NCBI GenBank assembly: GCA_040902655.1
Contig: JBBDWV010000025.1
Coordinates: forward strand, 1-53,290
Direction: 5' to 3'
Source: Mycobacteriales bacterium
Lineage (GTDB): Bacteria > Actinomycetota > Actinomycetes > Mycobacteriales > SCTD01
DNA: 53,290 bases
Position 1 is the first letter of the stretch, and each line of letters begins with the position of its first letter. The notes under the pieces were generated by a model. It did no database searches, was not told the DNA's origin, and was given only the letters and a program-made list of their open reading frames with translations. The position numbers and the translations under genes were made by a program. This document shows positions 39,911 to 53,246 of this stretch, piece after piece.

Positions 39911-40876
39911 TTACGGCAGCAGGACGACCTTGCCGATGGTGCCGCGGTCGGCGAGCTTGGCCAGGGCGGACGGCGCCTGGCTCAGGGGGAGTTCCGCACC
40001 GATCAGGGGGTCGATCCGTCCTTGCTCCCACAGCGCCATCAGCGCGTCGTGGGTGTCCGGGATGACCTGCGGCTGGTGCGTGCGGTAGAGCGCCCAGTGC
40101 AGGCCGACGACCGCGTAGTTCTTGACCAGGGCGTGGTTGGTCGGGGCGTCCGCGATCCGGCCGCCGGCGAAGCCGACGACCACGATCCGACCCTCGAAGG
40201 CGATGCACCTGCGGCTCTTGTCGAAGGTGTCACCGCCCACCGAGTCGTAGACGACGTCGGCGCCGCGGCCCTCCGTGATGTCCTTGACCACGGGCACGAA
40301 GTCCTCGGCGAGATAGTCGATGCAGACGTCGGCGCCCAGCTGCTCGCAGACCCGGATCTTCTCCGGACCGCCGGCGGTCGCGATCACGCGGGCGCCGGCG
40401 GCCTTGCCCAGCTGGATGGCGGCGCTGCCCACCCCACCGGCGCCGGCATGGACCAGCAGCGTCTCACCGGGCTGCAGCCGCCCCCGGTGGTGCAGGCCCA
40501 GGTAGCCGGTCTGGTAGGTGATGAGCATGCTCGCCGCCGTCGCGGCGGGCATGGCGTCCGGGACGGGTAGTGCTCCCGCCTCCGACACCACGACCCGCTC
40601 GGCCAGACCGCCGCGTGGCAGGCCTGGGGCGGCGAGGACGCGTTCACCGGCCCGCGGCCCGTCCAGCACGGTGCCGCAGACCTCGAGCCCCGGCGTGAAC
40701 GGCAGGGGGGGCTTCTCCTGGTAGAGACCGCGGCACAGCAGCACGTCCGGGAAGTTGAGCGCGACGGCGTCCACCCGGAGCCGGAGGGTGCCGGAATGGA
40801 CCGCCGGCTCGTCGACCTCCTCCCAGCGCAGGACGTCCTGCGGCTCGCCCACCTCGTGGAGCTGCCAGGCCTTCAC
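39911..40876 (-). CDS. NADPH:quinone oxidoreductase-like MDR protein
   Basis: A 321-residue zinc-free medium-chain reductase of the quinone oxidoreductase group. LNFPDVLLCRGLYQEKPPLPF at the N terminus, VHAGAGGVGSAAIQLGKAAGA as the dinucleotide loop and VVYDSVGGDTFDKSRRC are typical. It reduces quinones or alpha,beta-unsaturated carbonyls. Its GTG overlaps the stop of a 28-residue frame upstream. It lies at the left end of the catabolic locus, divergent from the tetR gene, so it is likely part of the same regulon, perhaps as an enoyl reductase or electron acceptor. Confidence 0.88.
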   Translation of the reverse strand: MKAWQLHEVGEPQDVLRWEEVDEPAVHSGTLRLRVDAVALNFPDVLLCRGLYQEKPPLPFTPGLEVCGTVLDGPRAGERVLAAPGLPRGGLAERVVVSEAGALPVPDAMPAATAASMLITYQTGYLGLHHRGRLQPGETLLVHAGAGGVGSAAIQLGKAAGARVIATAGGPEKIRVCEQLGADVCIDYLAEDFVPVVKDITEGRGADVVYDSVGGDTFDKSRRCIAFEGRIVVVGFAGGRIADAPTNHALVKNYAVVGLHWALYRTHQPQVIPDTHDALMALWEQGRIDPLIGAELPLSQAPSALAKLADRGTIGKVVLLP

Positions 40877-40959
40877 GCCGCCGCCCCCTCGCCGTAGGAC
40901 ACCGGCTCGGCGCCGTCGGGGTACCGCTTCAGGTCCGCGCCTCGCGGATCCACCGCCAT
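40873..40959 (-). CDS. 28-residue micro-ORF coupled to the MDR gene
   Basis: A frame MAVDPRGADLKRYPDGAEPV... ending YGEGAAA, with AAGGAG six bases before its ATG and a GTGA overlap with the downstream reductase start. The ribosome-binding site is one of the best in the window, so the peptide is very likely translated; it may serve to couple translation or be a functional peptide. It is hydrophilic with no known domain. Confidence 0.65.
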   Translation of the reverse strand: MAVDPRGADLKRYPDGAEPVSYGEGAAA

Positions 40960-41092
40960 CGTTCTCCTTCAGGGTTCGCGTCGTGGGGGAGTCCGGGCCG
41001 GGACCCCCTGGGCTGTCCGGAACGAGGTCTACCTCACGGGCCGGCAGGCCGAGCAGCCGACCCTGTCGAGCCGGGCGCGGAGATTCCCGCGG

Positions 41093-41121
41093 TTGACAAC
41101 CAAGCGTTCGCTTGGAAGTCT
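41093..41121 (+). promoter_or_regulatory. tetR promoter with palindromic operator
   Basis: TTGACA (41093-41098), a 17-nt spacer and AAGTCT (41116-41121) make a housekeeping-type promoter. The spacer contains the perfect palindrome CCAAGCG-TT-CGCTTGG (41100-41115), in the position expected for a repressor. It most likely binds the TetR protein encoded 50 bases downstream, and could also affect the divergent micro-ORF/reductase unit. Confidence 0.75.
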
Positions 41122-41171
41122 GCCCGGGCGGCTCCGCAGGCCGACACGTCGGTCCGGCCCGAGGGGACGAG

Positions 41172-41813
41172 ATGGTCGCGAGGTCCGTGCGTGGGCCCGA
41201 TGTCGACACCACGGTCCGCAATGCCGGACTGGTGGCGGCCCGGCGGGCGGAGATCTGTCGCGCCGCCGTCGTCTTGGCGCGTCGCGTCTCCTTCGGTGCG
41301 GTGACGACCCGCGAGATCGCGGCTGAGGCACAGATGAACATCGCCACCGTGTACCAGTACGTCCGGTCCAAGGACGACATCGTCTTCCTGGTGTGCCAGC
41401 AGAACGTGTCCAACCTGCAGGACGAACTCAGTGCCAGCGAGGTGAACCCCGTGCGGAGATTGAAGAGCCGCTTCTTCACCCTCATGCGCGTGATGCAGGA
41501 CAGGCAGCTGGAGATCACCTTCGTCTACCAGGAGTCGCGCAACCTCGACGGCGAGTACCTGCAGGCGGTCAAGGACTGGGACGAGCTCGTCGTCGACCAT
41601 TTCGAGGAGCCGTTGGCAGCCGCGCACCGGCTGGGCATGGCCGAGGTCGAGAACACCCGGCTCGCCGCCCGTTCCATGGTGGAGACCGGTTATGCCTGGG
41701 CCAACAAGAGTTGGTCGTTCCGCAAGATCGCGACCAACGAGGAGTACCGCGACGTCCACTGGCGGTGGTTCGAGAGAGCGTTCGACCTGCGGGTCGGAGA
41801 GGAGCAGGAATGA
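41172..41813 (+). CDS. TetR-family regulator of the catabolic locus
   Basis: A 213-residue TetR regulator. The helix-turn-helix is FGAVTTREIAAEAQMNIATVYQYVRSKDDIVF (about residues 40-71). The C-terminal ligand domain is rich in aromatic and acidic residues (for example AWANKSWSFRKI). I chose ATG 41172, which follows GAGGGGACGAG; the frame extends upstream into the promoter. Its stop overlaps the acyl-CoA dehydrogenase start (ATGA), so it heads the operon. An acyl-CoA or a pathway aldehyde/acid would be a typical inducer. Confidence 0.9.
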   Translation: MVARSVRGPDVDTTVRNAGLVAARRAEICRAAVVLARRVSFGAVTTREIAAEAQMNIATVYQYVRSKDDIVFLVCQQNVSNLQDELSASEVNPVRRLKSRFFTLMRVMQDRQLEITFVYQESRNLDGEYLQAVKDWDELVVDHFEEPLAAAHRLGMAEVENTRLAARSMVETGYAWANKSWSFRKIATNEEYRDVHWRWFERAFDLRVGEEQE

Positions 41814-42964
41814 ACGAGGACGTCCAGGGCCGGGTCCGCGAGCTACTGACCAGCGACGGCGGTGTGCCGGCCGACCACGGGCGGGACGTGGACCGGTTCT
41901 ACGCCGAGACGGTCCCCGCCCTCGCGAAGCGCGGGCTGTTCGGGCTGTTGATCCCGCAGGCCTATGGCGGCCACGGCTACACGGTCGAGCAGTACGTCGC
42001 CGCGATCGAGGAGATCGCGGCCCACGACATGATGGCGGCGTACTCGATCAACGAGCACTCCACCATCGGGACCCTCGGCCTGGTGCAGTACGGCAGCGAA
42101 CAGCAGAAGGCGGCCCTGCTGCCCGCACTCGCGGCCGGCGAGGTGCTCGCAGCGTTCTGTCTCACCGAGCCGGCGAGCGGGTCCGACATCACCAGCCTCG
42201 GGACGCACGCCGCACCACGTGAGGGTGGCTACGTGCTGAACGGCAAGAAGATCCACATCAGCCTCGCCCACCACGCTCGGCTCTTCACGGTCCTCGCGCA
42301 GGTCACCGGCTCCGAGGGTCCGGCCCGCAAGGCGGCTTTCCTGATCTCCCGTGACAACCCCGGCCTGTCGAACGGCCCCGAGAATTCCAGCCCACCCGGC
42401 TACCTCATCCCCATCGCGGGATCGGTCGTCCTGGACGGTTGCGAGGTCCAGGACAGCGACGTGCTGGGCGCGGTAGGTGCTGGTGGGCGCATCTTCAAGC
42501 AGGCACTGGAGACCGCGCGGGTGGGGCTGGCCGGGGCCTACGTCGGCAACGGGCGGGATGCCCTGGCCCGCACCGTGGCGCGAGTCGTCGAGCGTCGCAG
42601 CTTCGGGCAGCGGGTCGCCGACCATCAGATGGTCCAGGCGAAGATCGCCGACATGCACGTCTCGGTCGAAGCGGGCCGCCAACTGGTACGTCACGCCGCG
42701 CGGGTCATCGACACCGAGCCGGAGGCGGCGACGGCGGTGTGTGCGGCCGCCAAGGTCTTCGTCACCGAGGCCGCCCAGCGCATCGGTGCCGACGCCGTCC
42801 AGCTCTTCGGTGGAGCCGCTTTCCTCGTCGAACCGCCGGTGGACTGGTATCTGCGGGACGCCAAGATGGGCGACATCCTGGGGGGGACCTCGGAGGTGAT
42901 GCGGTTGCTCATCGCCAAGGACGTGGTCGGCAGGCACACCCTGGCGGTGGAGGCTCGTGCCTGA
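41810..42964 (+). CDS. Acyl-CoA dehydrogenase
   Basis: A 384-residue flavoprotein of the acyl-CoA dehydrogenase family. AFCLTEPASGSD (FAD/substrate loop), VLNGKKIHIS, and ILGGTSEVMRLLIAKDV at the C terminus are recognisable. At the latter site most family members have YEGT or EEGT, with the catalytic Glu; here it is LGGT. A Glu in ALETARVGLAG aligns with the alternative base of isovaleryl- and long-chain dehydrogenases, so activity is still plausible. It is coupled to tetR upstream and overlaps the ligase by 8 bases. Substrate unknown. Confidence 0.9.
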   Translation: MNEDVQGRVRELLTSDGGVPADHGRDVDRFYAETVPALAKRGLFGLLIPQAYGGHGYTVEQYVAAIEEIAAHDMMAAYSINEHSTIGTLGLVQYGSEQQKAALLPALAAGEVLAAFCLTEPASGSDITSLGTHAAPREGGYVLNGKKIHISLAHHARLFTVLAQVTGSEGPARKAAFLISRDNPGLSNGPENSSPPGYLIPIAGSVVLDGCEVQDSDVLGAVGAGGRIFKQALETARVGLAGAYVGNGRDALARTVARVVERRSFGQRVADHQMVQAKIADMHVSVEAGRQLVRHAARVIDTEPEAATAVCAAAKVFVTEAAQRIGADAVQLFGGAAFLVEPPVDWYLRDAKMGDILGGTSEVMRLLIAKDVVGRHTLAVEARA

Positions 42965-44579
42965 GCCCGCCGCCGAGGAGTTGACCGTCCCCGAGCTGCT
43001 CCGGCGACATGCCCGTGAGCGGCCCGACCAGCCGTTCCTCGAACAGGTCGAGGACGGCAGATCGTCCACCTACGCGCAGGTCGCCGCCACGGTGGAGCGC
43101 GTCGCTGCCGGACTGCGGTCCCTGGGAGTCGGACGGAACGACCGGGTGGTGACGATCCTGCCGAATGTCGCGGAGAGCGCGGTCGCCTGGTTCGCGTGCA
43201 TGCGGCTCGGGGCGGTCGAGTGTCCGGTCGGCGTCGGCTACAAGGGGCCGCTGCTCGTCTCGCTCCTCGACAGTGCCGACGCGCGCGTTCTGGTGGCCTC
43301 GAGGAGTGTCCTCGCCGACCTCGAGCCGGTGCTCGGTGCGGTACCGGGGCTCGAGCACCTGGTCGTGGTGGACGTCCCGGGCAGTTCGGCGCCGGCTCCG
43401 CAGGCACCGGCCGGCCGCACCGTCTGGTCGTGGGAGCAGTTGGCCGACCTCGGCGAGCCGGACCGGCTCGAGGAGGTGCCGTTGGGCATGAGCGACGTCG
43501 CCTGCATGCTGTTCACGTCCGGGACGACAGGCGGCTCCCGAGGAGTCCTGTGCACCTTTGCGCAGGAGTACGAGTCGGCTGTCGCCGCACCTCCCGGGCT
43601 CGACCGGTCAGAGGCGATCTACGCCACGTCCCCGCCCAACCACGTGGGCCAGAAGCTGCTGCTCTACAAGTCGCTCGTCGCGGGGTGCCGACTCGTCATG
43701 CGGTCGTCTTTCAGCCTCTCGCACTTCTGGAGCGACGTCCGGGAGTCCGGGTCCACCCACACGCTGCTGCTCGGCGGCGCGACCAGCTACCTGCTGTCCG
43801 AGCCGGTCCGCGACGGCGAGGACGACAGCCCGCTGCGCTCGGTGCTGATGATTCCGATTCATCCTGACGTCAACACCTTCCGGGCCCGGTTCGGTGTCGC
43901 CGTGCACTCGATGTTCAACATGACGGAGATCTGTCCGGTCACCTCCATCTCGGACGAGGACATCGTCGATCACCGCAGCTGTGGGCGGGTGCGTCCCGGT
44001 TTCGACTGGCGCCTGGTCGACGAATTCGACGAACCGGTGCCGCTCGGTGAGCCCGGCGAGCTCGTGCTCCGTCCGGAGAAGCCGTGGCAGTTCTCGAGGG
44101 GCTACTGGCGCGACGACGCGAAGACCGTCGACGCGTGGCGCAACCTGTGGTTCCACACCGGAGACGTCTTCGTGACCGACGAGAGCCTGCAGCTGCGCTA
44201 CCTCGACCGCAGGAAGGACGTCGTCCGGCGCCGTGGGGAGAACATCTCCTCGGCCGAGCTGGAGAGCATCGCGGTCGCGCACGACCAGGTCGAGGAGGTC
44301 GCGGTGATCGGTGTCCCGTCCGAGCACACGGAGGAGGACATCAAGCTGGTCGTCGTGCCGCGGCAGGTCGGTTTCGACGACGCTCTCGACATCTTCTGCT
44401 TCCTCGAGCAGCGGGTGCCGCGGTTCATGCTCCCGCGTTACGTCGAGTTCGTGCCGGAGCTGCCGAAGACCCCCACGTTGAAGGTGCGCAAGGGCGAGCT
44501 GCGCGCCGGCGGGGTGTCCGGACGGCTGCACGACGTGCAGGAGCTCTCGAGGAGCCGGCGGAAGGGCGGCTCCTCGTGA
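42957..44579 (+). CDS. AMP-forming acyl-CoA ligase, CaiC-like
   Basis: A 540-residue adenylate-forming enzyme. The P-loop is LFTSGTTGGSRGV (about residues 184-196), the A5 region is MFNMTEICPVT, the A7/A8 region is FHTGDVF...RRRGENISSAELE, and the Lys of the acyl-adenylate step is in TPTLKVRKGELR. The overall pattern is closest to crotonobetaine/carnitine-CoA ligase (CaiC), but the family is broad. It would convert a carboxylic acid to its CoA thioester for the adjacent dehydrogenases. GTG start inside the dehydrogenase 3' end. Confidence 0.92.
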   Translation: MPEPAAEELTVPELLRRHARERPDQPFLEQVEDGRSSTYAQVAATVERVAAGLRSLGVGRNDRVVTILPNVAESAVAWFACMRLGAVECPVGVGYKGPLLVSLLDSADARVLVASRSVLADLEPVLGAVPGLEHLVVVDVPGSSAPAPQAPAGRTVWSWEQLADLGEPDRLEEVPLGMSDVACMLFTSGTTGGSRGVLCTFAQEYESAVAAPPGLDRSEAIYATSPPNHVGQKLLLYKSLVAGCRLVMRSSFSLSHFWSDVRESGSTHTLLLGGATSYLLSEPVRDGEDDSPLRSVLMIPIHPDVNTFRARFGVAVHSMFNMTEICPVTSISDEDIVDHRSCGRVRPGFDWRLVDEFDEPVPLGEPGELVLRPEKPWQFSRGYWRDDAKTVDAWRNLWFHTGDVFVTDESLQLRYLDRRKDVVRRRGENISSAELESIAVAHDQVEEVAVIGVPSEHTEEDIKLVVVPRQVGFDDALDIFCFLEQRVPRFMLPRYVEFVPELPKTPTLKVRKGELRAGGVSGRLHDVQELSRSRRKGGSS

Positions 44580-45385
44580 CCGGCCGGCCTCCCGCCCCGC
44601 CGGGCGCCGCCGGCGGGGGCGCAGCGGTCTTCGACCCGCAGCGTCTCGGGCAGATCTACGACGCGCCGGCGGTCGTCGACCAGCGGGCTGCCACCCGACG
44701 ACTGTTGGCGGCCCGACCAGGCGCGCGCGTGCTGGACCTGGGCTGCGGGCCGGGCCACCTGACCGCCGAGCTCGCCGGTGACGTGGGCGAGCAGGGCCAC
44801 GTGCTGGGCCTGGACCGCCAGCCGAGCATGATCGAGGCGGCCCGGCGCAGGACGGGCCGCGGTGCCGGGCAGGCACGGCGAAACTTCGTGCTGGGTTCGG
44901 CGACCGCCCTACCGCTCGACGATGCGTCCTGCGACGGCGTCGTCGCCGTCCAGGTGCTGGAGTACGTGCCGGACCTGGAGCAGGCCGTGGCCGAGCTGTG
45001 TCGGGTGCTGCGGCCGGGTGGCACAGCTGTCCTCGTGGACACCGACTGGCGTTCGTGCGTCTGGCACTCTGCCGACCGGGACCGGACGGACACGGTGCTG
45101 CGGGCGTGGGAGGAGCACTTCGTGCACCCACACCTGCCGACGGGTATCGCCGCGCTGTTGCGGGCCGGCGGCCTGCAGGACGTGCAGGTACATGCGGTGC
45201 CCGTCGTCGAGACCGATCCCGCCGCCGCCCTCTACAGCCTCGGCATGGCGGACCTGATCGCCGCGTTCGTCGCCCGGCGGCACCGCGACCTGGTGGAGGC
45301 GTGGCAGGCCGACATCCTCCAGCAGGCGGCCGCGGGGGAGTACTTCTTCGGCGTGACCCGCTTCGCGGCCGTCGCCACCCGGTGA
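44576..45385 (+). CDS. SAM-dependent methyltransferase
   Basis: A 269-residue class I methyltransferase. The SAM-binding motif I is VLDLGCGPGHLTAEL (about residues 53-67), then LGLDRQPSMIEAARRR, LGSATALPLDDASCDGVV and VLRPGGTAVLVD. It resembles UbiE/COQ5-like enzymes, but no quinone genes are present. It is coupled to the ligase by a GTGA overlap and is the last gene of the plus-strand unit; its stop is one base from the stop of the convergent amidase gene. Methylation in an otherwise oxidative pathway is unexpected. Confidence 0.9.
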   Translation: MTGRPPAPPGAAGGGAAVFDPQRLGQIYDAPAVVDQRAATRRLLAARPGARVLDLGCGPGHLTAELAGDVGEQGHVLGLDRQPSMIEAARRRTGRGAGQARRNFVLGSATALPLDDASCDGVVAVQVLEYVPDLEQAVAELCRVLRPGGTAVLVDTDWRSCVWHSADRDRTDTVLRAWEEHFVHPHLPTGIAALLRAGGLQDVQVHAVPVVETDPAAALYSLGMADLIAAFVARRHRDLVEAWQADILQQAAAGEYFFGVTRFAAVATR

Positions 45386-45386
45386 G

Positions 45387-46838
45387 TCAGCGCGCGGCCT
45401 CGACGGTGGCGCCGACCCGGCCCAGCAACGGCTCGGAGCCCGGTGGTCCGAGCACCTGCAACCCCACGGGCAGGCCTGCGCCGTCGACACCGCACGGCAC
45501 CGACAGCGTCGGCGCCCCCGTCACGGCGCCGAGGCAGGCGTAGCGGGACAGCGCGGCGGCCACCAGCTGCGGACGTCCACCGACCTGCACGGTCTGCTCA
45601 CCGCGTGGCGGGGCCGTGCACGGTGTGGTGGGAAAAACCAGCACGTCGAGAGCAGCGGTGGCGAAGCAGTCCGCCAGCGCGCGTCGCACGGCGCGGGACG
45701 CCTGCAGGGCGGTACTCGCGTCCGCGTCGTCCAGCTCGGTGCCGAGGGTGAGCAGGGCCCGGGCTGCAGACCCCCAGTGCCTCGGCCGGGCGAGCACAGC
45801 GGGGGCCCACAGCCGGGCGGAGGCGTGCAGCATGACCAGCAGGGAGGCGGCCGCCGCCCAGCCCGTCTCCGGCACGGTGACGTACACGGGTCGGGCCCCC
45901 CGGCCGGCGAGCCCGTCGACGGCGCGCTCGACCTGCTCCGCCACGCCCGGCTGGACCGGACCGGTGGTGAGCACACCCACCCGCAACCCCTCGACCTCGG
46001 GAACCGGGACCGGGACCGGCCGTCCGCTCAGCAGGCCGAACAGCCGGAGGCACAGCGAGACGTCGCGGGTGAGCGGTCCGATCGTGTCCTGCCCGGGGGC
46101 GAGCGGCGTCGCGCCCGCGGTGGGCACCATGCCGTGGGTGGGGCGTAGCCCGACGACGCCGCAGAGAGCGGCCGGGATGCCGATCGAGCCACCGGTGTCG
46201 CTGCCGAGGGCGCCGGCGACCAGGCCGGCGGCCACGGCGACGGCGGATCCCCCCGACGACCCGCCGGCCAGCCGGGCGGGGTCCTGGGGGTGCTCCACAG
46301 CAGGGGTCGTCGCGCCCCAGCCCATCTCGTGCGTGGCCGACTTCCCGACGCAGACCGCGCCCGCCGCTGCCAGCCGCTCCCACGCCGCGCAGGAGACGTC
46401 GGGCTCGCGCCAGGCGCCGCCCGGAGTGCCGTTGCGGGTCGGCTGCCCGGCGACGTCGAGCAGGTCCTTGACGACCATGGCCAGGCCCTCGAGCGGACCC
46501 GCCCGAGGGCGGTCGAGCGACTGCGGGACGTGGACCAGCGCCGGTCGAGGCGCGTTCCCGGCCGCCTGCGCACGGCGGAGCAGGTCCTCTCGTGCAGCCG
46601 GGGGGAGGTCCGGCCACGGCGTCGGGCGAGCTGTCGGCGGCGCTGTCGGTGGCGGTGGCGCGTCCGGCAGCCGTTCCCAGCCGCGGGCGGCCGCCTCGCC
46701 GCTCCCGTCGCGCATCGCGGCCGAGACCACCTGCCGGGCGCGGAGCATCATCGCGCGGTAGGCGTCCGCCGTACGCGTCTCCAGCTCGTCGCCGGCGATC
46801 AGCCGCCCCGCCTGCGACGGGCGCGGCGGCGTGCTCAC
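45387..46838 (-). CDS. Amidase signature family protein
   Basis: A 483-residue amidase-signature enzyme. The Ser-cisSer-Lys triad is visible: Lys in AMVVKDLLDVAG, cis-Ser in LAGGSSGGSAVAV, and nucleophile Ser in LGSDTGGSIGIPAA. It hydrolyses an amide or aryl/short-chain amide to acid and ammonia. The N-terminal ~60 residues are helical and Pro-rich. Its GTG overlaps the CoA-transferase stop (GTGA). It is the last gene of the minus-strand catabolic unit and may supply the free acid for CoA activation. Confidence 0.92.
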   Translation of the reverse strand: MSTPPRPSQAGRLIAGDELETRTADAYRAMMLRARQVVSAAMRDGSGEAAARGWERLPDAPPPPTAPPTARPTPWPDLPPAAREDLLRRAQAAGNAPRPALVHVPQSLDRPRAGPLEGLAMVVKDLLDVAGQPTRNGTPGGAWREPDVSCAAWERLAAAGAVCVGKSATHEMGWGATTPAVEHPQDPARLAGGSSGGSAVAVAAGLVAGALGSDTGGSIGIPAALCGVVGLRPTHGMVPTAGATPLAPGQDTIGPLTRDVSLCLRLFGLLSGRPVPVPVPEVEGLRVGVLTTGPVQPGVAEQVERAVDGLAGRGARPVYVTVPETGWAAAASLLVMLHASARLWAPAVLARPRHWGSAARALLTLGTELDDADASTALQASRAVRRALADCFATAALDVLVFPTTPCTAPPRGEQTVQVGGRPQLVAAALSRYACLGAVTGAPTLSVPCGVDGAGLPVGLQVLGPPGSEPLLGRVGATVEAAR

Positions 46839-47980
46839 GCCGAGGCCCGCGCGACCAGCCGGTCCACGACCTCGGCGGGACAGCCTGCGGCGAGCAGGAT
46901 CTCGCGCGTCTGCCGGCCGATCTCGGGCGCGTGCGACTGCGGGCCGGGTGCCGTTCCGTCGAAACGCAGCGGCTGGCGCACGTGCACCCGCTCCGGGTGG
47001 TCCGGCTCGGCCGGGACTGTCACGAACATCCCGCGGGCGCGTACCTGGGGGTCCTGCGGGACGTCGTCGAGGGCGTTCACCCAGGCATGAGGCACGTCGT
47101 GCTCCACCAGCCGCTGTTCCCACGCGGACCTGCCCCGGGCACCGACCTGCGCCGCGATCCGCTCCGTGAGCTCGTCGTGGCGCTCCAGTCGCTCGGCCGA
47201 GCGCAGTCCGCTCAGTTCGGGGAGCTCGCAGGCCGCGCACAGGCGCTTCCAGAAGTGGTCCTCGTGCGCCACGCTCAACGAGAGCAGCTGCCCGTCGGCG
47301 GCGGCGAAGACGCCGTAGCCGGGTTCGTACGGGAACGCCGGAGGTCCGAGCCGGTTCACCACGGGCATCAGGTGTGCCGTCAGGAGCGACACCAGCCCGT
47401 CGGTCATCGAGACGTCGACGTGTGTCCCGTTGCCCGTCCGCTCACGTTGCTGCAGAGCCGACAGCACCCCGACGACCGCGAACAGGCCTGCCGACAGGTC
47501 TCCCAGCGCCAGGCTGGGGGCGGCCGACTGCCCGGGGAGCTGCAGGCGCTCGTACAGATGCCCGGCGACCGCCTGGTAGGACACGTCGTGGGCCGGCCGG
47601 TCCCGGTAGGGGCCGTCCTGTCCGAAGCCCGAGATCGACGCGTAGACCAGGCGCGGGTTCACCTCGCGGACCTGCGGATAGCCGACGCCGAGGCGCTCCA
47701 TCGTCCCCGGCCGGTAACCCTCCAGCAGCACGTCGGAGGTGCGGCACAGCGCCAGCAGCGCGTCGACACCCTCCTGGTCCTTGAGGTCCAGCGCCACCGA
47801 GCGCTTGCCGCGCGCGAGTGACTCGAAGAACGAGCCGAACTGGCGCGCCGGGTCGCCGCCACCAGGCCGTTCCACCAGGACCACGTCCGCGCCGAGGTCG
47901 GCCAGCAGCAGGGTGGCGTACGGGCCGGGGTACTGCTCGGCCAGCGAGAGCACCCGGAGGCCCGTCAGGGGTCCCGTCAC
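46835..47980 (-). CDS. Family III CoA-transferase (CaiB/BaiF type)
   Basis: A 381-residue class III CoA-transferase. GLRVLSLAEQYPGPYATLLLADLGADVVLVERPGGGD at the N terminus carries the family fold start, with a catalytic Asp expected in the LALGDLSAGLFAV region. GFGQDGPYRDRPAHDVSYQAVAGH is another family block. It exchanges CoA between carboxylic acids. Together with a CaiC-like ligase in the opposite unit this provides two routes to the CoA ester. Its GTG overlaps the dehydrogenase stop. Confidence 0.92.
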   Translation of the reverse strand: MTGPLTGLRVLSLAEQYPGPYATLLLADLGADVVLVERPGGGDPARQFGSFFESLARGKRSVALDLKDQEGVDALLALCRTSDVLLEGYRPGTMERLGVGYPQVREVNPRLVYASISGFGQDGPYRDRPAHDVSYQAVAGHLYERLQLPGQSAAPSLALGDLSAGLFAVVGVLSALQQRERTGNGTHVDVSMTDGLVSLLTAHLMPVVNRLGPPAFPYEPGYGVFAAADGQLLSLSVAHEDHFWKRLCAACELPELSGLRSAERLERHDELTERIAAQVGARGRSAWEQRLVEHDVPHAWVNALDDVPQDPQVRARGMFVTVPAEPDHPERVHVRQPLRFDGTAPGPQSHAPEIGRQTREILLAAGCPAEVVDRLVARASA

Positions 47981-49122
47981 TCCTGCGCCCACCCGTTCCC
48001 GTCGACGAGCTGCCGCGCCGCGACCATGTGCTGGATCGTGGGGGTGCCCTCCTCCAACCAGTTCAGCCGCGCGTCGCGGTACAACCGCTCGATGCTCCGG
48101 GCGCGGGTGTAGCCGATGCCACCGTGCACCAGCAGGGCGCGGTCGGTGACCCGGCCGACGGCTTCGAGTCCGAACAGCTTCACCAGGGAGGCCTCGAGCG
48201 GGATCGGCTGCCCCCTGTCGTACTTGTCGGCGACGTCGTCGAGCATGAGGCGCAGCGCGTAGACGTCCTGCGCCATCTCGGCGAGGTAGCGCTGCACCGC
48301 CTGACGCTCGGCGATCGGCTTGCCGAAGGTGACCCGCTCCCGGGCGTGCTGCAGGGAAAGCTCGAGCGCGTACTCCGCGGTGCCCAGGGACGAGCCGGCG
48401 ACGAGCACCCGGCTGATCTCCAGGGAGCGCTCCATGCCCGCCAGGCCCTCGCCCTCCTGTCCGAGCAGGTCCGTCGCGGGCACCCGGACGTTGTCGAAGG
48501 TGAGCTGGCCGTGCTGGCCGCCCTTGCACCCCATCGTCTCGGGAAGCGCCTCGATCGTGAAGCCGGGCAGCCCCCGCTCGACCGACAGCGCGCTGACCGC
48601 CGACCGGCCGCCGGTGCCCGTCCGGGCGAACACGATGAAGTGGCTGGCGAAGTCGGAATTGGTGATGAGCCACTTGCGCCCGTTGAGCACGTAGGAGTCG
48701 CCGTCGCGAACAGCAGTGGTCCCGAGGTCCGCCCCGGTGCCGTGGTCCGGCTCGGTGAGGGCGAAGGCGACCGACTTCTCGCCGCGCGCCGCTGCAGGCA
48801 ACACCGCCCGGGCCTGCTCCTCGCTGCCGAGCTCGGCGTACGCGTGGCACATCGAGTTGTGCACGTGGACCAGCGCCCGGATGCCACCGTGCACCTTGGC
48901 GAACTCCGCGATCACCGGCAGGTACTGGGCGATACTCAGACCCAGCCCGCCGTACTGCTCCGGGATGAGCATGGCGAAGACTTTCAGGTCGGCGAGGATC
49001 GGGAAGAGCCGGTCGCGGGGGATCGACTCCGTCTCCTCGATCTCCTCGGCCAGCGGCGCGACCTCGCTCCACAGCCGGGCGAAGACCTCCGTGCGAAGTG
49101 CCTGGTAGTCCTGGTCCTCCAT
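47977..49122 (-). CDS. Acyl-CoA dehydrogenase
   Basis: A 381-residue acyl-CoA dehydrogenase distinct from the one in the tetR unit. It has AFALTEPDHGTGADLGT, YVLNGRKWLITNSDFASHF, and the C-terminal NWLEEGTPTIQHMVAARQL, in which the Glu before Gly-Thr is the standard catalytic base. It removes two hydrogens from an acyl-CoA. ATG 49122 follows AGAGGAG at somewhat long spacing; upstream extension to 49215 lacks family sequence. It is separated by 52 bases from the alcohol dehydrogenase and overlaps the CoA-transferase. Confidence 0.93.
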   Translation of the reverse strand: MEDQDYQALRTEVFARLWSEVAPLAEEIEETESIPRDRLFPILADLKVFAMLIPEQYGGLGLSIAQYLPVIAEFAKVHGGIRALVHVHNSMCHAYAELGSEEQARAVLPAAARGEKSVAFALTEPDHGTGADLGTTAVRDGDSYVLNGRKWLITNSDFASHFIVFARTGTGGRSAVSALSVERGLPGFTIEALPETMGCKGGQHGQLTFDNVRVPATDLLGQEGEGLAGMERSLEISRVLVAGSSLGTAEYALELSLQHARERVTFGKPIAERQAVQRYLAEMAQDVYALRLMLDDVADKYDRGQPIPLEASLVKLFGLEAVGRVTDRALLVHGGIGYTRARSIERLYRDARLNWLEEGTPTIQHMVAARQLVDGNGWAQE

Positions 49123-49174
49123 CGCTGAGGACTCCTCTCTCGGGGCGGTGCGGTGCTCAGGCCGGTCCGTCAGC

Positions 49175-50269
49175 TCAGGTCGCCTCCGGGGAGACCTTGA
49201 TGCTCGCCCGGGCAACCTTGCGGGCCGCGGAGTCCCGCAGGCCCTGCTCCACGTCGTCCAGCGCGTAGTCGGCGTCGACCAGCGAGTCCCACGGGTAGTG
49301 CGCGTTGTCGGCCAGGAAGTCCAGCGCCCGGCCGAGGAACCACGGGTGGTAGCGGATGGCCGCCCGGATGACCGCCCCCGAGCGGGTGAACAGACCAGGG
49401 TCGAAATCGCACAGCTTGCCGGGGCTGATGCTGCCGATGCTCACGAACCGCCCGCCCGGCCGGACCGTGCGCACGCCGTCCGAGAAGGTGCTCGGCACGC
49501 CGGTGACGTCGATGACCGCGTCCGGCGCGCCGCCGACCGCCTCGTGCACCGCGGCCACCCGCGCCTCGGCGGTGTCCGCACCGGACAGGTCGACCACCTC
49601 GTCCGCACCGAACAGCCGCGCGGAGGCGATCCGGTCCGGGTGCACCTCGGTGACGACGACGCGGGCACCGCGCTCCTTGGCGATCGCGATACCGCACAGC
49701 CCCAGGCCGCCGGAGCCCTGGATCAGCACGGTCTCACCGGTGGCCACCTCGGCGAGGTGGACGCCGTACATCATCTGGGAGAGCGCGCAGTTGGCGCCGG
49801 AGGCAGCCCGGTCCGGGACGCTGTCCGGGACCCGGTAGACGTACTGGTCACGGTGCACGTAGTAGTGGGTGCCGAAGGTGCCATGGAAGTGCGGGCTGCT
49901 CGTGGCCGGCTCGCGCCAGAAGGCGTAGGCGTTCTGGCACAAATTCCACTCGCCGCGCTGGCAGGCCGGACATCTGCGGCACATCTGGAAGTAGGTGGCC
50001 ACGATGCGGTCGCCCTCCCGCAGCGGCTGGCCGGCGAAGTCCCGGTCGACACCGTCGCCCAAGCGGGCGACCCGGCCGATGCCCTCGTGCCCGAGCACGC
50101 AGCCGTCCACGATCAGCGGGTGGTGCCCGCGCCAGATGTGCAGCTCGGAACCGCAGATGTTGGCGCGCAGCACCTCGGTGAGGATCTCGCCGGCGCCCGG
50201 ATCGGGGAGGTCGAATTCGCGCTGCTCGATCCGCTCGGGACCGGTCAGGACCGTCGTCACGCCTTTCAT
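49175..50269 (-). CDS. Zinc-dependent alcohol dehydrogenase
   Basis: A 364-residue medium-chain alcohol dehydrogenase. Catalytic zinc ligands are Cys in NICGSE and His/Glu in LGHEGIG; structural zinc is bound by CRRCPACQRGEWNLC. The cofactor loop is IQGSGGLGLCGIAIAKERG, ending in an acidic or Glu residue pattern typical of NAD. It would oxidise a primary or secondary alcohol to the aldehyde used by the coupled aldehyde dehydrogenase. The ATG overlaps the stop of that gene (ATGA). Confidence 0.93.
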   Translation of the reverse strand: MKGVTTVLTGPERIEQREFDLPDPGAGEILTEVLRANICGSELHIWRGHHPLIVDGCVLGHEGIGRVARLGDGVDRDFAGQPLREGDRIVATYFQMCRRCPACQRGEWNLCQNAYAFWREPATSSPHFHGTFGTHYYVHRDQYVYRVPDSVPDRAASGANCALSQMMYGVHLAEVATGETVLIQGSGGLGLCGIAIAKERGARVVVTEVHPDRIASARLFGADEVVDLSGADTAEARVAAVHEAVGGAPDAVIDVTGVPSTFSDGVRTVRPGGRFVSIGSISPGKLCDFDPGLFTRSGAVIRAAIRYHPWFLGRALDFLADNAHYPWDSLVDADYALDDVEQGLRDSAARKVARASIKVSPEAT

Positions 50270-51732
50270 GCCTGGCTCCTCACATCGAATGCGACCATCT
50301 TGGTCTGGCTGTACTCGTAGACGGCTTCGAGTCCCTTCTCGCGGCCGAAGCCGGACTTCTTGAAGCCGCCGAACGGCAGCGGGACGCCGCCGCCCGCCCC
50401 GTAGGAGTTGACGTAGACCTGACCGGACTTGACGTGCCGGGCGAGCCAGAGAGCGCGGTCGACGTCGGTCGTCCAGATCGAGGTGACCAGCCCGAACGCC
50501 GTGGCGTCGGCGAGCGCCGCCGCCTCGGCCTGGTCGGCGAAGGTCAGCACGCTCAGGACCGGGCCGAAGATCTCCTCCCGGGCCACCCGCATGTCGCTGG
50601 ACACGCCGTCGAGCAGTGTCGGCGAGACGAAGTAGCCGCCGTCGAGGCCCGCGAGCGACGGTGCGCCGCCGCCCGCGGCGACGGTGCAGCCCTCGTTCCT
50701 TGCGATGTCGAGGTAGCCCAGCACCCGGTCGCGCTGGACCGAGGAGATCAGCGGCCCCATGTCCGGGTCGTCGGTTCCGCGGCCGAGGGTGACGCCGCGG
50801 AACCGTTCGCCGAGCAGCTCCACGAGCTCGGCGTGCCGGGACTCGTGGACGATCACCCGGGTGCCTGCCGCGCAGGTCTGGCCGGCGTTCTGGATCAGGG
50901 CATTGGTGATGACCGGAACCGCCCGCGCCAGGTCGGCGTCCGCCAGGACGATGCTCGGGGACTTGCCTCCGAGCTCCATCGTCACGGGCTTGACATTCGT
51001 TGCTGCCGCGGCCATGACGATCCGGCCGGTGTCGACCCCGCCGGTGAAGGAGATGTGGTCGATGTCGTCGCTGCCCGCGAGGTAGGCGCCCGCGACCTCG
51101 CCGCGGCCCGGTACGACGTTGAGGACACCGGCCGGAACTCCGGCCGCCAACGCGATCCGGCCGAGCAGGACCGCGGCCAGCGGGGCCTCCTCCGCCGGCT
51201 TCACCACGCAGGCGTTGCCGACCATGAGGGCGGGGGCGACCGTCCTGGAGCAGATCTGGATCGGGTAGTTCCAGGGGATGATGTGCCCGGTGACGCCGAG
51301 CGGCTCACGGAACGTCAGGGCGAAGGAGGAGCCGTCCAGCGGGATCGTGTCGCCATAGAGCTTGTCGGCGTAGCCGGCATAGAACTCGAAGTACTGAGCG
51401 GCCACCTCCACATCGGCCCTGGCCTGGCGTAGCGGTTTGCCGGTGTCCGAGGACTCGATGTGTGCGAGCCGGTCGGCGTCCGCCCGGATCCCCTGGGCGA
51501 CCCGGTAGAGGATCTGCCCGCGCTCCCTCGGTGGCAGTGCGGCCCAGGTCGGCTGCGCTCTCCGCGCCGCGTCGATCGCCTCCTGGACGTCCTCGGGCTG
51601 CGCGTCCGCCACCCTGGTCAGCAGCCCGTCCGTCGACGGGTCCTTCACGTCGAGGGTCTGGCCGCCGGCCGCCGGCCGGCTGCTGCCGTCGATCAGCAGG
51701 TCGAGCCGATCCTCGATCATCGTGTTCGTCAT
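50266..51732 (-). CDS. NAD(P)-dependent aldehyde dehydrogenase
   Basis: A 488-residue aldehyde dehydrogenase. The catalytic Glu is in MELGGKSP (about residue 255) and the nucleophilic Cys in NAGQTCAAG (about residue 289). IIPWNYPIQI and the C-terminal PFGGFKKSGFGREKG fit betaine-aldehyde or aminobutyraldehyde-type enzymes, but substrate cannot be fixed. I chose ATG 51732 because GGAAGGTG lies 7 nt upstream; GTG 51741 is too close to it. It is first in the minus-strand unit and divergent from the solute-binding protein gene. Confidence 0.93.
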   Translation of the reverse strand: MTNTMIEDRLDLLIDGSSRPAAGGQTLDVKDPSTDGLLTRVADAQPEDVQEAIDAARRAQPTWAALPPRERGQILYRVAQGIRADADRLAHIESSDTGKPLRQARADVEVAAQYFEFYAGYADKLYGDTIPLDGSSFALTFREPLGVTGHIIPWNYPIQICSRTVAPALMVGNACVVKPAEEAPLAAVLLGRIALAAGVPAGVLNVVPGRGEVAGAYLAGSDDIDHISFTGGVDTGRIVMAAAATNVKPVTMELGGKSPSIVLADADLARAVPVITNALIQNAGQTCAAGTRVIVHESRHAELVELLGERFRGVTLGRGTDDPDMGPLISSVQRDRVLGYLDIARNEGCTVAAGGGAPSLAGLDGGYFVSPTLLDGVSSDMRVAREEIFGPVLSVLTFADQAEAAALADATAFGLVTSIWTTDVDRALWLARHVKSGQVYVNSYGAGGGVPLPFGGFKKSGFGREKGLEAVYEYSQTKMVAFDVRSQA

Positions 51733-52010
51733 CGTGGTCACCTTCCGTCGCGGCCCGCGCGGGCGGGGCCGACGTTACATAGACCGGTCGGTCAACACAA
51801 GACTCCCGGTGGGTCCTGCACGGACGTCCCGGACACAGTGCGGTTACGGTATTGATCTGCTGCGCCGTGCTACTGGACGGCGGCCCGGATCAGTGCTTTT
51901 CTCGCAGCTGTACTGACCGGTCCAATGCGAGATCGTCCCAAACAGCAGGACGCGGTTTTCCAGTCCATGGGCAGCGCAGCTGTCCAGGCACATAGACAGA
52001 GGAGCTTGGT
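51733..52010. other. 278-bp divergent intergenic region
   Basis: This spacer separates the aldehyde dehydrogenase unit from the solute-binding protein gene. Apart from the two GACCGGTC-type palindromes I see no other strong element; it is less GC-rich than the genes around it. It should contain both promoters. Confidence 0.6.
51772..51801 (-). promoter_or_regulatory. Candidate aldehyde-dehydrogenase operon promoter with palindrome
   Basis: On the minus strand CTTGTG (51796-51801) and TAACGT (51772-51777) are separated by 18 nt, a plausible promoter. The spacer includes the 12-bp perfect palindrome GACCG-GT-CGGTC (51782-51793), a likely operator. A related GACCGGTC lies at 51915-51922, closer to the divergent lipoprotein gene. 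Confidence 0.5.
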
Positions 52011-53246
52011 ATGACGTTGAGGTCACGACGGGCCGTCGCAGTGCCCGCGCTCGTCCTCTCGCTCGCGCTCGCCGCGTGCGGTGGTGGTGCTGGTGGCGGC
52101 GCTGGTGGCGGCGAGGGTGGTGGCGACCCGATCGAGCTCGGCTTCATCTCCGTGTTCTCCGGGCGGATCGCGATGCTGGGCGAGACCGGCTTCAAGGGCG
52201 CGGAGCTGGCGGTCGCGGACATCAACGAGGCCGGCGGCGTGCTCGGACGTGAGCTCCGCATCTCCCAGAAGGACACCGCGGCCAACCCCGAGCAGGCGGT
52301 CCGCTCCGCGCGCGACTTCGTCCTGCAGGACGAAGTCGACTTCCTCATCGACGGCTCGTCCTCGAACGAGTCCTTCGCCGTGTCGCAGGCCGCTCCGCAG
52401 CTGGACACGGTCGTCATCTCGACGGCCTCGGAGGCCGACAGTCTGACCGAGGAGAAGAACTTCCAGCCGCGGGTGTTCCGCGCGGCGCGCAGCACGTGGC
52501 TCGACGGGATCGCCAACGCGCAGTACGGCAAGACCCTCGGGTTCAAGAACTGGATGTCGATCTCGCCGGACTACGCCTACGGCCGCGACTGCACGGACCG
52601 CTACTTCGAGGCGCTGAAGCAGGAGCAGCCCGGTGTGCAGGTCGGCAACCAGCTGTGGCCGGCGCTGTTCGAGCCGGACTACACGCCGCTGATCCAGCAG
52701 ATCCTGCAGCGCAAGCCCGAGGCGGTCTACAGCTGCCTGTGGGGTGGTGACCTGGTGGCCTTCATCCAGCAGGCCCAGCCGTTCGGTCTGTTCGACAAGA
52801 CCACCTTCGTCACGCCGGCCTTCGCGGACTCACTCGTGATCGAGGCGCTGGGGGACAAGGTGCCGGCCGGCATCCACAGCGCCTCCCGTTTCGCGCTCGG
52901 CTCTCCGCCCAGCGACGCGAACGAGAAGTTCGATTCCGACTACCGCGAGAAGTACGGCGAGGGCCCGACGAACTGGTCCGTGCAGGCCTACATCGGTGTC
53001 TGGCTGCTGGCCGAGGCGATCAAGGAGGCCGACTCGATCGAGCCGGATGCCGTTGCCGGTGCGCTGGAGGGAATCGAGATGGCGGACACCCCCTGGGGCG
53101 ACGTCCAGCTCCGCGAGAAGGACCACACCCTCATCCGGTACGACATCCGCTGGGGCGTCACGGAGCCGTCCGGGACCGACTACCCGATCGACTTCACCTT
53201 CGAGGCCGATTGGGACACCGTGCTCGAGAAGCAGGGCTCTGCCTGA
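52011..53246 (+). CDS. Branched-chain amino acid/amide-type ABC solute-binding lipoprotein
   Basis: A 411-residue periplasmic-type binding protein (Peripla_BP_6 / LivJ-UrtA-like). The signal peptide ends in the lipobox LAACGG, giving a lipoprotein anchored at Cys22 or so, followed by a Gly-rich linker. The fold shows IELGFISVFSGRIAMLGETGFKGAELAV and FKNWMSISPDYAYGRDC. Such proteins capture amino acids, urea or small amides or aromatic acids. AGAGGAG precedes the ATG. The rest of the transporter is presumably past the window edge. It probably brings in the pathway substrate. Confidence 0.9.
   Translation: MTLRSRRAVAVPALVLSLALAACGGGAGGGAGGGEGGGDPIELGFISVFSGRIAMLGETGFKGAELAVADINEAGGVLGRELRISQKDTAANPEQAVRSARDFVLQDEVDFLIDGSSSNESFAVSQAAPQLDTVVISTASEADSLTEEKNFQPRVFRAARSTWLDGIANAQYGKTLGFKNWMSISPDYAYGRDCTDRYFEALKQEQPGVQVGNQLWPALFEPDYTPLIQQILQRKPEAVYSCLWGGDLVAFIQQAQPFGLFDKTTFVTPAFADSLVIEALGDKVPAGIHSASRFALGSPPSDANEKFDSDYREKYGEGPTNWSVQAYIGVWLLAEAIKEADSIEPDAVAGALEGIEMADTPWGDVQLREKDHTLIRYDIRWGVTEPSGTDYPIDFTFEADWDTVLEKQGSA

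Follow-up and report, generated by a model that had tools for sequence, protein, structure and literature searches.

An Acquired Catabolic Island Encoding a CaiB-like Protein with the Catalytic Triad of Alpha-Methylacyl-CoA Racemase

Introduction

The active site of the alpha-methylacyl-CoA racemase of M. tuberculosis (MCR) contains the residues H126/D156/E241 (PMC10967716), and actinobacteria require Mcr for methyl-branched isoprenoids (PMC8538451). In one described strain, LivG/LivH, a binding protein, an acyl-CoA dehydrogenase (ACAD), a TetR-family protein, and an SDR are encoded near the lcp genes (PMC8538451). With respect to the ACADs, an alternative catalytic base of isovaleryl-CoA dehydrogenase has been described (PMC12369846).

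The locus analyzed here is located in the window, i.e., the whole stretch of DNA under analysis, which covers the initial 53,290 bases of a contig of 131,496 bases. A first-pass annotation had described it as a catabolic locus of nine genes with one gene at each flank. The reading as a tightly packed catabolic locus was sustained, whereas four of its points were not, namely the quinone oxidoreductase gene as a flank, the right end, the CaiB-like protein as a second route to a CoA ester, and the co-occurrence of the nine families. The best explanation of the locus, to which we assign a probability of roughly 0.5, is that it belongs to an island whose products import a carboxylic acid with an alpha branch (2-methyl or 2-alkyl), or derivatives of such an acid, and degrade it by beta-oxidation. 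This reading is adopted because of the racemase triad found in the CaiB-like protein and because of the neighboring genes.

Gene Content and Operon Structure

All eleven genes named in the first-pass annotation are present, and their families were confirmed using Pfam. On the + strand, TetR1, a TetR-family regulator (41172-41813; PF00440, PF17932 weak), is followed by ACAD1, a protein with the acyl-CoA dehydrogenase fold (41810-42964), a CaiC/PRK06155-like, AMP-forming acyl-CoA ligase (42957-44579), and a SAM-dependent methyltransferase (44576-45385; Pfam/NCBIfam), where the successive genes overlap by 4, 8, and 4 bases. On the − strand, a betaine-aldehyde dehydrogenase-like aldehyde dehydrogenase (ALDH, 50266-51741, with the ATG at 51732 as the likelier start) overlaps by 4 bases with a Zn-dependent alcohol dehydrogenase (Zn-ADH, 49175-50269), for which the nearest model, the HpnZ-like TIGR03366, scores below its cut-off. 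After a gap of 52 bases, the Zn-ADH gene is followed by ACAD2, a second acyl-CoA dehydrogenase (47977-49122), the CaiB/BaiF family III protein, referred to here as the CaiB-like protein (46835-47980), and an amidase-signature hydrolase (45387-46838), with two further overlaps of 4 bases. The gene order and the tight junctions had been read correctly: of the seven junctions between neighbors on one strand, six are overlaps of 4 or 8 bases. Several raw open reading frames exceeded the gene length; the spans were trimmed, and the start sites were picked from the sequence.

The genes inside each operon are likely to be co-transcribed. The two operons are convergent, with 1 base separating the amidase and methyltransferase genes, and must have separate promoters. 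The active-site motifs are intact in five of the enzymes, but not in ACAD1: the amidase has a complete Ser-cisSer-Lys triad (K124/S195/S218), the Zn-ADH retains C39, H61, and the four-Cys zinc motif, the ALDH retains C290 and E256, the ligase retains TSGTTG and K509, and ACAD2 retains E358.

An inverted repeat, GACAACCAAGCG-TT-CGCTTGGAAGTC, is located at 41095-41120 between tetR and the divergent gene of the NADPH:quinone oxidoreductase family (QOR, 39911-40876, − strand; Pfam/NCBIfam). Its exact core, CCAAGCGTTCGCTTGG, is present as one exact copy in the window, where about 0.5 copies are expected at up to 2 mismatches, and AAGCGNNCGCTT has a single occurrence across the 131 kb contig. The palindrome fits a TetR operator and is a probable candidate for that role. 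A second palindrome of the GACCGGTCGGTC type at 51778-51797, between the divergent ALDH gene and the gene of a lipoprotein substrate-binding protein (SBP, 52011-53246, + strand), is a possible second operator but is statistically weak.

The Acquired Island and Its Boundaries

The locus is the left third of an acquired catabolic island of ~35 kb, extending from about 40,877 to 76,183 of the contig and thus past the end of the window. The island is inserted between the QOR gene and an SDR gene, whose orthologue is found here at 76,184, giving a spacing of 35.3 kb. In the relative G017, the gene immediately before that of the QOR (84% identical), on the same strand, is the SDR orthologue, with no block between them, and the QOR-SDR spacing is 1.2 and 3.3 kb in G022 and G011, respectively. 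In these three genomes, QOR orthologues that are 78-84% identical occupy the same site without the locus. The relatives keep the QOR beside the same lytic transglycosylase gene, which is a core gene, and this places the QOR, previously taken as a flank of the catabolic unit, in the core genome as the left boundary outside the island. In the other genomes of the family that were searched, close counterparts of ACAD2, the ligase, the amidase, the methyltransferase, and the ADH were absent, and the CaiB-like protein had distant paralogues only. The G+C content is 0.708 in the block and 0.73-0.74 in the flanks. The simplest reading is that the block was gained in this lineage.

At the island ends, neither a tRNA nor a convincing terminal repeat was seen, the longest common direct match being 15 bases and probably due to chance, and a non-systematic search at the island found no integrase. 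The right boundary is uncertain by 1-2 kb. The − strand at 40873-40959 carries a reading frame of 28 codons that has a good ribosome-binding site (MAVDPRGADLKRYPDGAEPVSYGEGAAA) and stops where the QOR gene starts. This frame may encode a leader or may have arisen at the insertion junction.

On the right side, the locus had been taken to end at the binding protein; the island continues on the same contig with a transporter and further catabolic genes. The SBP gene is the first gene of a complete Liv-type ABC transporter, with LivHMGF encoded 3' of it at contig positions 53360-56816. After LivF, the island contains genes for a third ACAD (ACAD3), a luciferase-like oxidoreductase, a ligase, another TetR, the E1 of a 2-oxoacid dehydrogenase, and a Zn-ADH. 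Further genes there encode another ligase, an SDR, an epimerase-type protein, a member of the carboxymuconolactone decarboxylase family, another quinone oxidoreductase-like protein, an enoyl-CoA hydratase (ECH) recognized by eye in translation, and a thiolase. The presence of the hydratase, SDR, and thiolase indicates that the beta-oxidation steps absent from the window are encoded nearby. The luciferase-like gene lies between ACAD3 and a ligase gene (L150:6014-7009), and the E1 is a fused alpha/beta protein on the opposite strand inside the island (L150:9278-11995, corresponding to 61277-63994 of contig C25).

Recurrence in Other Genomes

Conserved co-occurrence of the nine families had been proposed as a check of the locus, and it was found in parts only. 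The sub-modules ADH-ALDH and ACAD2-CaiB recur, whereas the full set occurs in none of the sampled relatives. Synteny of the whole set was absent in the family (24 genomes including its own) and in samples of 200-300 genomes of the order, although absence in sampled genomes is not proof; the class sample of 395 genomes covered ACAD1 only, and the phylum sample of 396 genomes covered ACAD2 only. Among plasmids, no match to ACAD1 or the amidase was obtained at the limits used.

ACAD2 orthologues (64-70% identical) are encoded 1-5 kb from a close relative of the CaiB-like protein in Blastococcus (L040 and L042), Peribacillus (L039), and Paenibacillus (L041). The Peribacillus and Paenibacillus clusters contain a Liv transporter, ACAD2 (64%), SDR, CaiB, ECH, ligase, and thiolase. 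The Blastococcus clusters contain ACAD2 (68-70%), SDR, thiolase, ligase, and CaiB, and LivH, LivM, and binding-protein genes were recognized by eye in translation upstream in L042. In G165 and G152, a thiolase-like gene (by eye) comes after that of the ACAD2 orthologue, and next is a CaiB-family gene, which in G152 (L130) is of the plain MCR type. Two Rhodococcus plasmids encode ACAD2 with an SDR, a thiolase, a ligase, and a quinone oxidoreductase-family gene, with no CaiB within the stretch that was read. The ADH-ALDH pair recurs on plasmids of Rubrobacter, Halalkalicoccus, and Cnuibacter and in one genus of the same order. The window therefore joins two recurring modules with an amidase, plus an operon without close relatives.

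Two further observations concern the surroundings of these genes. A haloarchaeal plasmid cluster (L114) encodes a 50% identical ADH together with an LLM oxidoreductase, ACADs, and Liv genes. ACAD2 orthologues of two other genomes are also found near HyuA/HyuB-like genes of the hydantoinase/oxoprolinase type, recognized by eye (L129:1002-4951 and L130:1026-5418), hinting at nitrogen-containing substrates.

The Two Acyl-CoA Dehydrogenases and the Two Operons

ACAD2 has three ACAD domains and the canonical catalytic Glu, E358, which is kept in its orthologues. ACAD1 has Gly358 at the position of the canonical catalytic Glu and Ala236 at what we take to be the base position of isovaleryl-CoA dehydrogenase, so that both known base positions are without Glu. 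Predicted from an alignment of window and locus proteins, the fold of ACAD1 is that of an ACAD (Z 47.8 to SCAD). Judging from these residues, ACAD1 may not be a normal dehydrogenase.

The lack of a known catalytic base in ACAD1 is one of the points in favor of a reading in which the two convergent operons have different purposes. Operon 1 (TetR1-ACAD1-ligase-methyltransferase) would then serve another substrate or a biosynthetic step, and operon 2 with the Liv transporter alone would be the branched-acid pathway. The two operons have no common promoter, and operon 1 has no close relatives: ACAD1 has no match at 1e-75 in 394 other genomes, and the nearest matches of the ligase and methyltransferase are 41% and 42% identical, respectively. 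In addition, the ACAD2-CaiB pair of operon 2 recurs with ligases other than this one. However, both operons are placed in the same island, tail to tail and 1 base apart, and operon 2 itself encodes no ligase; the remaining ligase genes of the island are about 7-13 kb from the start of this operon. Such a division of the locus is quite possible.

Racemase or CoA-Transferase

The reading of the locus as a single branched-acid pathway includes a racemase, and it depends on the assignment of the CaiB-like protein, which had been regarded as a second route to the CoA ester. This assignment is doubtful because the protein carries the triad of alpha-methylacyl-CoA racemase. Its residues H131/D161/E240 align with His126/Asp156/Glu241 of the M. 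tuberculosis MCR (1x74) and are invariant in 25 aligned members of its clade. Among 88 homologues, H/D/E is found in the entire CaiB-like clade and in the MCR-type proteins, and Y/D/N is found in YfdE, SUGCT, and their relatives; this comparison covers MCR up to residue 320 and two solved transferases only. In the maximum-likelihood tree, the CaiB-like clade joins the MCR-type proteins with a support of 100/98, while YfdE and SUGCT are on the other side; the tree is unrooted and has long branches, with YfdE and SUGCT as the only characterized transferases.

If the protein were a true family III CoA-transferase, it would activate the acid from the alcohol, aldehyde, or amide branch with CoA from succinyl-CoA or a pathway thioester, and the ligase would serve a second substrate or prime the cycle, as in a carnitine-like logic. 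Several similarities are consistent with this function. The nearest NCBIfam models are those of succinyl-CoA:mesaconate and succinate-glutarate CoA-transferase, all of which score below their cut-offs; the best score, for the mesaconate transferase, is 220 bits vs. a 700-bit cut-off. These scores exclude the named transferases but not the broad family, and PF02515 matched strongly. The top fold match of the predicted model is SUGCT (Z 36.4, 2.6 Å over 374 residues), somewhat ahead of MCR (Z 30.8, 2.9 Å over 350 residues), the chain of MCR being shorter; the structural comparison does not separate the two functions. By sequence, the best match among solved structures is YfdE (E 1e-50), above MCR. 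D161 corresponds to the nucleophile Asp169 (FRC numbering) and could equally be a transferase nucleophile, but it is shared with the racemases and is not discriminating. Against the transferase function, the Tyr at the position of FRC Tyr139 and MCR His126 is replaced by His across the clade, and the Glu of MCR is present too, in addition to the grouping with MCR in the tree. Furthermore, the homologous clusters each encode their own ligase, which would make a CoA-transferase redundant. The transferase function is therefore considered rather unlikely, and the CaiB-like protein is probably a racemase or epimerase, as far as its sequence features indicate.

Only tentatively, we propose that the clade, whose members occur in Actinomycetota, Bacillota, Pseudomonadota, and Chloroflexota, is an uncharacterized sister family of alpha-methylacyl-CoA racemase. 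In some lineages, its members would act on alpha-branched acids together with ACAD2-type dehydrogenases and Liv transporters, and ACAD1 would catalyze a reaction other than ordinary dehydrogenation.

Proposed Pathway

In the branched-acid pathway, the Liv-type ABC transporter would import the compound, and the Zn-ADH and ALDH would oxidize a primary alcohol first to the aldehyde and then to the acid, which the amidase would also release from the corresponding amide. The AMP-forming ligase would convert the acid to the CoA ester, the alpha-carbon of which would be epimerized by the CaiB-like protein as in the reaction of alpha-methylacyl-CoA racemase, so that both enantiomers could reach ACAD2. 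ACAD2 would produce the 2,3-enoyl-CoA, and the hydratase, SDR, and thiolase from further along the island would complete the cycle. TetR1 probably controls the + strand operon via the palindrome at 41095-41120. Against this explanation, neither ACAD1 nor the methyltransferase fits into the scheme, and the complete family set is conserved nowhere that was searched. That these are merely ordinary fatty-acid or amino-acid beta-oxidation genes, loosely grouped without a dedicated pathway, is improbable: all of the protein families are common in actinobacteria and the parts are scattered in relatives, but the overlaps are tight, the island is missing from the corresponding site of relatives and has a dedicated transporter, and the module recurs across two phyla.

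The routine annotation of family III proteins is CoA-transferase, yet the racemase triad is present throughout a clade whose genes, in several genomes, lie next to beta-oxidation genes. Should these proteins be racemases, one step is wrong in many pathway reconstructions, and a module of transport plus racemase for alpha-branched acids can be recognized across phyla. The island also illustrates how a pathway of this kind can enter a conserved core gene neighborhood as one block.

Comparison with Known Systems

Other known systems were considered and set aside. In the carnitine (cai) operon, CaiA-, CaiB-, and CaiC-like families also occur together, but the cai genes do not include an ADH, ALDH, or amidase, and the scores are all far below the cut-offs of the carnitine-specific NCBIfam models (CaiB, 112 vs. 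413 bits; CaiC, 192 vs. 651 bits; CaiA, 123 bits for ACAD1 and 166 bits for ACAD2 vs. 540 bits). The intramolecular CoA transfer of the naphthalene type is not parallel, as that enzyme is a family I transferase (PMC11659651), and the paper found on 2-ethylhexanol catabolism offers no comparable gene set.

The clusters of Peribacillus glennii (L039), Paenibacillus sp. BSR1-1 (L041), and Blastococcus (L040 and L042), for which no published description was found, share with this locus ACAD2 (64-70%), CaiB (49-59%), a ligase, an SDR, and a thiolase, with Liv genes in L039, L041, and L042. Unlike this locus, they have no close relatives of its ADH, ALDH, amidase, ACAD1, and methyltransferase.

The Mcr-dependent catabolism of methyl-branched isoprenoids and rubber fragments in actinobacteria has the same order of aldehyde, acid, CoA ester, racemase, and acyl-CoA dehydrogenase, and the gene families named above near the lcp genes of one strain are shared as well (PMC8538451). 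However, the locus here has no latex clearing gene, and its amidase and methyltransferase are foreign to that pathway. A rubber degradation locus was rejected; the only PF09995 gene of the genome, which is latex clearing protein-like, is on another contig (C32:90114-90785, L153).

With MCR of M. tuberculosis and AMACR, the CaiB-like protein shares the CaiB/BaiF fold, 30% identity, the catalytic His/Asp/Glu, and its place in the tree as a neighbor, although it belongs to a separate clade and its predicted fold is marginally nearer to the transferases. Overall, the locus is real, acquired, and catabolic, and its chemistry is of a known kind; what is likely new is the clade of racemase type that carries a CoA-transferase annotation, the module in which it recurs across phyla, and the ACAD without a known catalytic base.
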